Below, piece after piece: positions 13,998 through 58,829 of a DNA stretch of 64,000 bases (position 1 is its first letter; each line of letters opens with the position of its first letter). This DNA comes from Dyella terrae (GTDB taxonomy: Bacteria; Pseudomonadota; Gammaproteobacteria; Xanthomonadales; Rhodanobacteraceae). The notes under the pieces were generated by a model. That model was not told the origin of the DNA. It saw nothing but the letters and a program-made list of their open reading frames with translations, and ran no database searches. The translations under genes and the position numbers were made by a program. The stretch is taken from positions 4,712,001 to 4,776,000 of the forward strand of contig NZ_CP089414.1 in assembly GCF_022394535.1 (NCBI RefSeq), read 5' to 3'.

Positions 13998-14682
13998 ATG
14001 GCGTCCTTCCGTTCCCTTCCTCGAATCGGTGTCGCGCTGGCCTTGGCCGCGCTGGCCGGCTGCGTCATGCAGCCGCCGCGCGACGATCACCAGTGGGCAG
14101 CCACCATGCCGGCGGAGCAGCCGGCGTCGCCGCCGACCGATGGCTCGATCTACCACGCCGAGCAGGGCATGGAACTGTTCAACGATGCGCGCGCCCACCG
14201 CGTGGGCGACATCCTCACCATCACCTTGGTGGAGAGCACGCAGGCATCCAAGAAGGCCACGACCAACACCAGCAAGAAGGACGTCAGCACCATCTCCGCG
14301 CCGAGCATCCTGGGTCATACGCTCAAGGTCGCCGGCCAGACGGCGGACACCAGCCTAAATGGAAACCGCGCCTTCGACGGCAGCGGCGACAGCAGCCAGA
14401 GCAACCAATTGTCGGGTTCGATCACGGTGACCGTGGCGCAGCGCCTGTCCAACGGCAACCTGCTGGTACGTGGCGAAAAGATGGTGACGATCAACCAGGG
14501 TCAGGAACAGATCCGCATTGCCGGCATCGTGCGCCCGCAGGACATCCTGCAAGACAACAGCGTGCCGTCCACGCGCGTCGCCGACGCGCAGATTGGCTAC
14601 ACCGGCAAGGGGGGCACTGGCCGATGCGAATACGCAGGGCTGGCTGTCGCGCTTCTTCAGCTCGAAGTGGATGCCGTACTGA
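13998..14682 (+). pseudogene. flgH: L-ring lipoprotein FlgH, frameshifted into flgI as given
   Basis: FlgH forms the outer-membrane L ring. A signal peptide ends in the lipobox LAGC ([22 protein letters not shown] region). The body contains [18 protein letters not shown] and [20 protein letters not shown]. At a G6 run (14609-14614) the frame leaves IGYTGKG and reads straight into flgI, giving an apparent 621-codon fusion. One G fewer gives [18 protein letters not shown] and then KWMPY with a stop at 14682 that overlaps the flgI ATG. Corrected length is 227 residues, normal for FlgH. Confidence 0.9.
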
Positions 14683-15851
14683 TGAACATCCGTCACCTTT
14701 TTACGCATGCCACGCTCATTCGCGCTGGCGAGCGCGCGGCAGCAGCGTTGCGCACCACTGCCATCGTGCTGTGCGCGTGCTTCTCGGTAAATCAGCCCGT
14801 GCACGCCGACAAAATTCGCGACCTGGTGCAGGTGGCGGGCGTGCGCAGCAACCAATTGATTGGCTACGGCTTGGTGGTGGGTTTGGACGGCAGCGGTGAC
14901 CAGACCACGCAGGCACCGTTCACTACGCAGAGTTTGGAAAACATGCTGGTGCAGTTCGGTATTACTGTGCCGGCCAACGTACGTCCGCAGCTAAAGAACG
15001 CGGCGGCCGTGACGGTGACGGCACAATTGCCGCCATTCGCCAAACCGGGTCAGGTCATCGACGTGACCGTGGCGTCCATCGGTAACGCCAAGAGCATTCG
15101 CGGCGGTGAGCTGCTGATGACGCCGATGCGCGGCGCTGACGGCAACGTCTACGCCATGGCGCAGGGCAGTGTAGTGGTGGGTGGTATCACCGCGTCGGGC
15201 AAGAGTGGCTCCAGCGTGCAGGTGAACATTTCCGCGAGCGGCCGTATTCCCAACGGCGCGTCGGTCGAGCGTGCCGTTGCTTCCTCGTTCTCCAACGGCG
15301 GCGACCTCGTACTCAACCTCAATACAGCCGACTTCACCACGGCGACGCGCATCGCTGAGGCGGTGAACCGTACGTACGGCGCCGGTACCGCCAGCGCGAT
15401 GGATGGTGGCTCGGTGAACGTGCGCGGCCCGCTGGATCCCAGCCAACGTGTGGCATGGCTCGGCGCGATCCAGGCGATCGAAGTCACCCCCGGTGATGCA
15501 CCGGCGCGCGTAGTGGTCAATTCGCGCACCGGCACGGTGGTGATTGGCGCGGATGTGCGAGTGACGCCGGCCGCGGTGGCGCACGGTTCCATCCAGGTGA
15601 CTATTTCCGAGAATCCGCAGGTCTCCCAGCCCAATCCCTTCAGCAAGGGCGGCCAGACCGTGGTGGTGCCGCAGAGCGACGTGCAGGTCAGCGAAGACGG
15701 CGCCCACATGTTCAAGTTCGGCCCGGGCACCAACCTGGACACCATCGTGCGTGCGGTGAACCAGGTGGGCGCGTCGCCGACGGATCTCATCTCTATCCTG
15801 CAGGCGCTCAAGCAGGCGGGTGCGCTCCATGCGGAGCTGGTGGTGATCTGA
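14682..15851 (+). CDS. flgI: Flagellar P-ring protein FlgI
   Basis: A 389-residue periplasmic P-ring subunit. The start ATG at 14682 overlaps the true flgH stop (TGATG). An N-terminal hydrophobic export segment ends near [10 protein letters not shown]. The mature part is typical: [48 protein letters not shown] and the C-terminal [20 protein letters not shown]. In the given sequence its frame is joined to flgH by a frameshift; the gene itself is intact. Confidence 0.95.
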
Positions 15852-15859
15852 TGGCTATG

Positions 15860-16032
15860 GAGCGTGCTCATGCTCTCACCGTGGCCCGCGCCGGAAGCTG
15901 TTTGCGCGCAGGGCAAGGAAGAACGAGGGCGTGTATGTCGATACACAACCGAGTGATGACGCTGCCCTGCGCCTCACTCCCTGGCGGGCGCATGAACTCA
16001 ACGCGGGTCACGGTGAGAGCATGAGCACGCTC
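15860..16032. repeat. Nested palindromic element with conserved core, copy 1 (flgI-flgJ)
   Basis: Outer arms 15860-15890 and 16002-16032 are inverted copies, 30 of 31 bases, with the one difference compatible with a G-U pair. The right arm contains the flgJ RBS and start codon. Inside, 15906-15915 and 15963-15972 form a perfect 10-bp stem (GCGCAGGGCA / TGCCCTGCGC). Its loop holds AAGGAAGAACGAGGG, a small GTGTA...TACAC stem and GAGTGATGACGC. The same core, with different arms, occurs at 58460-58726. Confidence 0.85.
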
Positions 16033-58367: not shown

Positions 58368-58459
58368 TCGTGGCTCCTTGCGCGCATGGCGTCGTGCGCG
58401 CGCCCTTCCGTGCCATGAAGATCGGCCGGCCTCGGAAAAACTTGAGGACCATTTTGCCC

Positions 58460-58726
58460 AGGGCCTGTTAGCGCCATTGGCGTGGCCCGCGCTGGGATCT
58501 TTTTGCCCGCCAGACAAGGAAGAACGAGGGAGTGTACGTCCGTACACGACTGAGTGATGACGCGGTATGGCGGGCAAAAAGACCCAGCCCGAAGGGTTGC
58601 TTGTCCGTAGCCACTCGGCGGCAGCGCGCGGCTTGACCTGGCAGCCAGCCAGGCCTGCGCCACGCCCCACCGCCCAGCGGCTACGGACAAGCAACGCGGG
58701 CTACGCCAATGGCGTTAACAGGCCCT
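58460..58726. repeat. Nested palindromic element with conserved core, copy 2
   Basis: Outer arms 58460-58491 and 58695-58726 are inverted copies (30 of 32, both differences G-U compatible). Middle stem TTTTTGCCCGCCA / TGGCGGGCAAAAA is 13 bp and perfect (58500-58512, 58568-58580), and encloses AAGGAAGAACGAGGG, GTGTACG-TC-CGTACAC and GAGTGATGACGC. A further 17-bp stem (58596-58612 with 58679-58695) is special to this copy. The core matches copy 1 at 15860-16032 while the arms do not. It occupies most of the 462-bp gap 58368-58829; no gene is seen there. Confidence 0.85.
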
Positions 58727-58759
58727 AGCCCAAATCCGGCGGTATGGGGCCGGGATCGC

Positions 58760-58786
58760 TAAAGCGGATAGGCGTATGGCCGATAA
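58760..58786 (+). promoter_or_regulatory. Sigma-28 promoter of the second chemotaxis operon
   Basis: TAAAGCGG, 11 bases, GCCGATAA: the -10 box and spacer match the FliA consensus exactly. It ends 43 bp before the STAS gene start. Confidence 0.88.
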
Positions 58787-58829
58787 ACCACCCGTAGACG
58801 CCCGCAGGGTGGGCGAAAGGACCAGCACG

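Follow-up and report, generated by a model that had tools for sequence, protein, structure and literature searches.

The window analysed here, a stretch of 64,000 nucleotides from the genome of Dyella terrae (a single contig of 5.36 Mb), carries a palindromic element on its + strand at two places. The first lies at the junction of flgI and flgJ (15860..16032, 173 bp, with bounds set by arm pairing), and the second, a full-length copy, lies upstream of a gene for a STAS-domain protein (58461..58725). They are two among 22 copies of an interspersed element of approximately 265 bp in this genome. Full copies fold as a three-way junction, in which outer arms of 31 + 31 nt form a helix (P1) and two hairpins of approximately 100 nt each, P2 and the long hairpin P3, branch from it.

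In the second copy the P1 arms, defined by their pairing, occupy 58461..58491 and 58695..58725 and form 29 Watson-Crick and two G.T pairs. P2 (58492..58587, from the fold, the alignment and the sequence) includes a stem in which TTTTTGCCCGCCA (58500-58512) pairs with TGGCGGGCAAAAA (58568-58580), and P3 spans 58596..58694 (from the fold and from the alignment A3). This third hairpin is mostly gone from the flgJ copy, which is devoid of the end of the P2 descending strand, the left arm of P3 and the P3 tip. There the left arm of P1 (15860..15890) pairs with the right arm (16002..16032) through 30 Watson-Crick pairs out of 31 and one G.T pair. The remaining P2 hairpin (15906..15972), recognised from the fold, from comparison within the family and from the G.A modules examined in 135 copies, comprises the core (15915-15929), an inner hairpin (15931-15946) and GAGTGATGACGC (15951-15962), all on the + strand. 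It is followed by a remnant of the P3 right arm (15973..16001), identified by comparison with another copy (L018) and with a full-length copy at the same site in genome G007.

A first reading of this DNA, made from the sequence only, had described an element at these two loci, with a common core and arms that differ in sequence. The core AAGGAAGAACGAGGG is indeed found at 15915 and 58516, for 0.13 occurrences expected in the window, and none of 100 shuffles gave two. GAGTGATGACGC, at 15951 and 58552, says little on its own, as 18 of 100 shuffles gave at least two occurrences at one mismatch. The 10-bp stem reported at flgJ is present in the computed fold, and the claim that the arms contain no mismatches other than G-U pairs holds for both loci. 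Of the arm lengths given, 31 bp is right for flgJ, and the 32 bp of the second locus correspond to 31 bp when aligned with the rest of the family, one adjacent A-T pair having been counted in. The two-locus element is thus real, and it was drawn too narrowly: it is a transposable repeat found genome-wide, for which empty sites exist and the target is duplicated over 3 bp. Folded as RNA, 15860-16032 had a z-score of -10.8 and 58460-58724 (one base off the element) a z-score of -15.1, none of 200 shuffles being as stable in either case. A chance palindrome is ruled out by the core shuffles, the z-score at flgJ and the covariation among 94 copies.

The original start codon of flgJ (15851..15853, + strand), located by comparison with element-free sites, overlaps the flgI stop codon and is now out of frame with flgJ. 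Among the 18 genus genomes readable at this site, host counted (G001 and G002 being unreadable), 16 have no element there, and in these flgJ begins just after the end of flgI, in most with the overlap TGATG. In the host the element lies a few bases past this ATG, which thereby no longer shares the flgJ frame. Here the P1 right arm supplies GGTGAGAGCATG, the frame continuing with MSTLPGDAANSL, and contains a Shine-Dalgarno-like GGTGAG (16012-16017) followed by the in-frame restart codon ATG (16021-16023), so that the downstream frame survived. As the sequence-only reading had proposed, the arm has taken over the start of flgJ, and the protein read from ATG 16021 contains the Rod-binding and Glucosaminidase domains, as in FlgJ. 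Judging from this frame, host FlgJ should now begin with MSTLPGD, for forms such as MAIPGD in relatives. Since the element has the same orientation as flgI and flgJ, the flgJ start may possibly be sequestered in a 31-bp stem of the mRNA, which would lower FlgJ translation.

The G007 copy occupies the same place at flgJ in the same orientation, with GGAGAGACCATGAACATGCTC. Both sides of P1 pairs 5, 8, 14 and 19 differ between the two genomes; the host copy pairs at all four and has G.T at pair 25, whereas the G007 copy is unpaired at pair 5. The flgJ insertion shows no recognisable target duplication. The host and G007 are not neighbours in the flgI tree, so that transfer, loss elsewhere or an insertion hot spot is needed. 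Upstream, the flgH frame (window 14600-14700) departs from its readable relatives near the 3' end, at a G run, and host FlgH and FlgI read as a single open frame of 621 aa; the end of flgH is intact in 6 other genomes. This departure may be real or a sequence error.

Searches with nhmmer over all fetched loci yielded 175 distinct copies from Dyella, Rhodanobacter, Frateuria and relatives. An arm score of at least 20 was reached by 162 of them, 148 had anchored arms and 136 had distinct arm pairs; 135 distinct P2 sequences (9 copies left out), 133 copies of 264-267 bp in length and, among these 133, 94 copies less than 93% alike were used as further sets. Most of the 13 copies without recognisable arms lie at contig ends or in low-quality sequence, the rest being truncated or altered. 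Exact matches in the host number 3 for the left core and 17 for the right core, each of the latter lying in a copy of the same repeat of approximately 265 bp. A covariance model of the P2 hairpin built from 17 copies (R1) gave 22 matches in the host and 0-31 per genome. Matches were found in 22 of 41 genomes: besides the host, these were 17 of its 19 congeners and 4 of 5 further genomes of the family, the 16 genomes drawn from elsewhere in the order having none. In a wider draw, 63 of 299 genomes of the order matched (E <= 0.001), including 25 from other families (f2, f8 and f9), and this overturned the confinement to one bacterial family that the 0 of 16 had indicated. The 25 genomes match P2, many of them with a single copy, and might possibly hold an ancestral or autonomous form. 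A pattern scan of named genomes, with a pattern that fixes the left strand of P2, returned 92 stretches with titles naming Dyella, Rhodanobacter or Frateuria.

Several variants were observed. L088 (G012:C15), the sole and weak match in G012, has the P2 outer stem and a P3-like tip around another P2 core, so that the family is probably wider than R1 detects. Longer versions (L014, L171, L142 and L211) measure 308-311 bp where complete, L014 and L211 carrying an additional small hairpin, GGCGCCATGGATGGCGCC, between P2 and P3. Copies L129 and L105 have no P3 or a short P3, and L064 is without P2. At L111, L117, L128, L150, L184 and L211 (Dyella sp. ASV24 / G004) draft contigs stop inside the P3 hairpin and run into an adapter-like stretch, then a G run. 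As the palindrome seemingly breaks assemblies, copy numbers in drafts may be lower bounds.

No Rfam family matched the window at the gathering score, the five matches in 58400-58800 all lying far below it. A known RNA family is thereby rejected as far as Rfam goes, and the sequence-only reading had not recognised a named family either. A role as local regulator of flgJ only is ruled out by the genome-wide family. With one copy as blastn query, no relative was found in PLSDB or INPHARED, and one core pattern had no match in IMG/VR. Among titles and abstract openings, a scope that takes in few subscription papers, we found no description of the element.

Most copies end with GRGCCTG/CAGGCYC. Within P1 the outermost bases (mostly GRGCCTG) and the innermost CGCG at the junction are conserved, and pairs 8-27 are variable. 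The outer stem of P3 varies freely, and its tip is conserved. P2 contains a core between its lower stem and an inner GTGTAYGTC..TACAC hairpin. Its two strands, GGAAGAACGAAGGA and GACTGAGTGATGACGC, alternate Watson-Crick pairs with tandem G.A/A.G modules, four in all. The eight G.A pairs of these modules are kept in 131, 135, 134, 134, 134, 133, 127 and 119 of 135 distinct copies, two of the eight being partly held by the filter that excluded 9 copies (no loop GTC or GAC in columns 74-76), and some copies having come from the pattern that fixes the left strand. These pairs are presumably sheared, and covariation (A-U/G-C, C-G/U-A) is seen at the Watson-Crick pairs that separate the modules. Given the length of 265 bp and the freely varying arms, it is unlikely that the element codes for a protein.

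Mobility is most directly seen at a host copy near positions 4650190-4650499 of the genome, flanked by CGGCCTTA and TTAGGGTCGC in the arrangement TTA-310 bp-TTA. At the same site the sister genome G004 has CGGCTTTAGGGGGCGC, an empty site; the comparison of GCGGCCTTA-element-TTAGGGTCGC in the host with GCGGCTTTA-GGGGGCGC in G004 gives an insertion with a 3-bp duplication. Of 83 copies with anchored arms, taken among the earliest 99 and comprising a few orthologous pairs, 21 had identical flanking trimers, for a shuffle mean of 7.3 and a maximum of 15 in 2000 shuffles. They were TTA (9), TAA (7), TGA (2), TCA, TTT and TTG (1 each); the other 62 copies had no identical 3-bp flanks, and identity over 2 bp only was not in excess among the 83 (14, with 14.0 expected by chance). 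IS200/IS605-type transposition is not known to make a target duplication. The copy at 58461-58725 is absent from 18 of the 19 other genomes aligned and ambiguous in the 19th (G001). None of 162 copies lies inside one ORF, as judged by a crude ORF caller to which a gene broken by the insertion would be invisible. The same 162 copies show no orientation bias relative to genes (++ 33, -- 49, +- 20, -+ 30, 30 unresolved).

The host has a single FMN riboswitch match, and the P2-less copy L064 (G000:C1:4661329-4661362) lies in a loop of a variable stem there; L358 is the same insertion in G004. An FMN riboswitch match above the cut-off was found in 18 of 20 genus genomes (16 of the 18 uninterrupted riboswitches were read), the exceptions being the host and G004, both with the insert. 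The effects on the host are thus striking, with the flgJ start replaced and, in two sister genomes, the sole FMN riboswitch detected interrupted. Between the two genomes one P1 pair of this copy is compensated (T-A versus C-G), and in both P1 comprises 24 Watson-Crick, 4 A.C, 1 G.U and 1 other out of 30 pairs.

Pairing was analysed in the 94 copies of the A3 alignment, where 96.4% of 8,072 pair cells were standard and 70 of 86 pairs changed on both sides. The covariation score was 0.509, versus 0.152 after shuffling and 0.058-0.078 with the partners slid, and 98.0% of P1 cells (pairs 1-30) were paired. The sequence-only reading had named many unpaired copies or missing covariation as what would speak against it; neither was found, nearly all copies being paired and the covariation very strong. 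Changes were counted by parsimony, the tree having been built from this alignment itself, and recombination between copies inflates the counts. On this tree Watson-Crick to Watson-Crick double changes numbered 295 in P1 (118 of transversion type; G.U 43, A.C 32, other 6), 92 in P2 (21 of transversion type; G.U 73, A.C 21, other 49), 209 in the P3 outer stem (117 of transversion type; G.U 17, A.C 53, other 17) and 14 in the P3 tip (G.U 5, A.C 2, other 6). A second tree with 138 copies agreed for P1 and P2, with 257 doubles in P1 (G.U 48, A.C 44, other 15) and 71 in P2 (G.U 84, A.C 25, other 59); sliding P1 by one column left 9 doubles.

If selection acted on the fold of a single strand, G.U would be expected to prevail in all helices. 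When each mismatch was taken once per cluster of similar helices, the ratio of G.U to A.C was 46:34 in P1 (p 0.22; 34:27 without the fixed wobble of pair 24), 31:13 in P2 (p 0.0096; 28:13, p 0.028, without its commonest wobble), 18:57 in the P3 outer stem (p 7e-6) and 3:2 in the P3 tip. P3 differed from P2 (p 9e-7) and from P1 (p 4e-5); P1 and P2 did not differ significantly in the clustered counts (p 0.18) and did so in the tree counts (p 0.007). Since the bias of P3 is opposite, one selected RNA strand is insufficient, and with a + strand G.U excess in P2 and a non-significant lean in P1, a process at the DNA level better explains some of the covariation in the arms. In our reading P2 is a selected + strand fold, and at least P3, and probably P1 too, are kept palindromic at the DNA level. 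The covariation that the sequence-only reading had ascribed to selection on RNA or cruciform structure is real; the RNA strand alone does not account for it, and arm-to-arm copying of DNA is a live alternative.

We consider it quite probable that the palindrome at flgJ belongs, as a truncated copy, to a new family of transposable elements that are short, gene-less and MITE-like. Its members would share a length of approximately 265 bp, the three-way-junction fold, an outer GRGCCTG and a 3-bp TNA target duplication, and would insert between genes in either orientation. They would presumably be moved in trans by a putative DDE-type transposase, a type suggested by the target duplication. After insertion the long arms would stay nearly fully paired as their sequence drifts, much of the pairing being maintained by a DNA-level process, which we infer to be template-switch copying from arm to arm and/or selection on an extruded DNA hairpin. 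The P2 core, conserved as a + strand fold, is most likely the recognition site of a protein, either from the transposition machinery or from the host. At flgJ a copy would have landed a few bases past the original start codon.

Arm copying has its own difficulties. Mismatches per P1 were Poisson-like (0, 1, 2, 3, 4 and 7 in 47, 57, 22, 6, 2 and 2 of 136 copies), and the over-dispersion expected from tract-wise correction was not seen among them. Odd mismatches were also rarer than wobbles in P1 (11 versus 80 clustered cases), as selection would give too. This rarity fits the less likely possibility that selection on the arms acts at the level of DNA: the transposition machinery would recognise a cruciform or a hairpin of single-stranded DNA, and the arm sequence would be free as long as it pairs. 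The absence of a significant strand bias in P1, its reversal in P3, and the conserved outer bases and junction CGCG around variable pairs 8-27 also agree with it, but copies at orthologous sites, perhaps no longer mobile, remain paired, and no enzyme is known. Such selection is compatible with the MITE-like explanation and is not separable from template switching here. Rather unlikely in our view is a further idea, in which the element is mobilised by its shape, the ends and the P2 core being read as folded single-stranded DNA and the arms being free if paired. If true, this would be a transposon family with inverted repeats conserved as structure and not as sequence. Integron attC sites were considered as another comparison; there IntI reads R and L boxes on the folded strand.

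It is doubtful that the element is instead a structured-RNA family, transcribed and with its fold selected in place, as a regulator of neighbouring genes or as a trans-acting small RNA, with mobility incidental. The very strong covariation, the very stable folds, the P2 core conserved while the arms drift, and the G.U excess of P2, with the same non-significant lean in P1, would all be expected; as P1 and P2 are not significantly different in the clustered counts, we rate this explanation slightly higher than we otherwise would. Against it stand the opposite bias of P3, the lack of a preferred orientation to genes and the copies with no P3 or a short one. In flank-matched copies, moreover, single P1 differences were A.C/WC in 22 cases, G.U/WC in 13 and odd in 7, for 47 WC/WC doubles, over redundant, overlapping pairs of which two groups are doubtful orthologues, and the FMN-riboswitch copy, transcribed in the + sense, has the excess of A.C over G.U given above. 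An element of the REP/RAYT type, which a tyrosine transposase would move in single-stranded form, would likewise be palindromic, intergenic, multicopy and hairpin-rich, but is very improbable in view of the 3-bp target duplication, of 265 bp versus the 20-40 bp of REPs (PMC3733652) and of the missing GTAG/CGTC end tag.

Returning to the MITE-like explanation, we looked for a mobiliser. The TNA duplication and the GAGCC-like end resemble those of IS5-family elements of the IS1031 group. PF13340 was above the cut-off in none of 20 genus genomes, host included, one having sub-threshold matches; in the host, no convergent AGRGCCTGTTM end pair at IS distance was seen (by eye, for that end sequence only). 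An IS5/IS1031 partner was thus not found with PF13340 or with the end pattern. The two PF01609 elements of the host have ends that differ from those of the element. Two diverged insertion-sequence copies were observed in the host (L289 and L290, G000:C1:4106112-4106789 and 4116486-4117160), 87% identical over 1.6 kb; L289 has a DDE transposase frame of 478 aa, and the ends of both are unrelated to the element. The host elements that we take to be IS1182-like are ruled out as partner by their other ends. As no ends shared with an autonomous insertion sequence were found (in the host, and with PF13340 in 20 genomes), we use the term MITE-like. Like MITEs, the element is short, multicopy and dispersed, with terminal inverted repeats and a target duplication with an empty site.

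Compensatory substitutions in a stem usually count as proof that an RNA is functional. The element offers a natural experiment in many copies, some of them orthologous, and with empty sites. Adjacent helices of this one element all covary strongly and yet bear different strand signatures, so that the template-switch hypothesis of hairpin maintenance becomes testable against selection. What is new here, in our reading, is a family of MITE-like elements whose arms covary and whose folded core is conserved.

Bacterial MITEs include ERIC/IRU, Correia/NEMIS and RUP. In PMC10969869, MITEs are described as short, intergenic and typically AT-rich, with terminal inverted repeats, direct repeats of the target and a transcript that would form a stable stem-loop. 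The element resembles QMITE2 and other bacterial MITEs in being short, intergenic and foldable, with terminal inverted repeats and target repeats; it is unlike them in its GC-richness, its three-way junction, its 31-bp arms covarying both between copies and in place, and its conserved core of four tandem G.A modules, and no parent IS was found for it. REP elements, given in PMC3733652 as 20-40 bp long and tagged with GTAG or CGTC, are likewise dispersed palindromic repeats, some within larger palindromes, and the element differs from them by its 265 bp, by having no terminal tag and by its target duplication. Template switching has been proposed to make compensatory stem changes in one event; PMC8794818 describes it in RNA genes and calls its part in the upkeep of short stems less clear, whereas here the process is put forward for a mobile element and strand bias serves as the discriminator.
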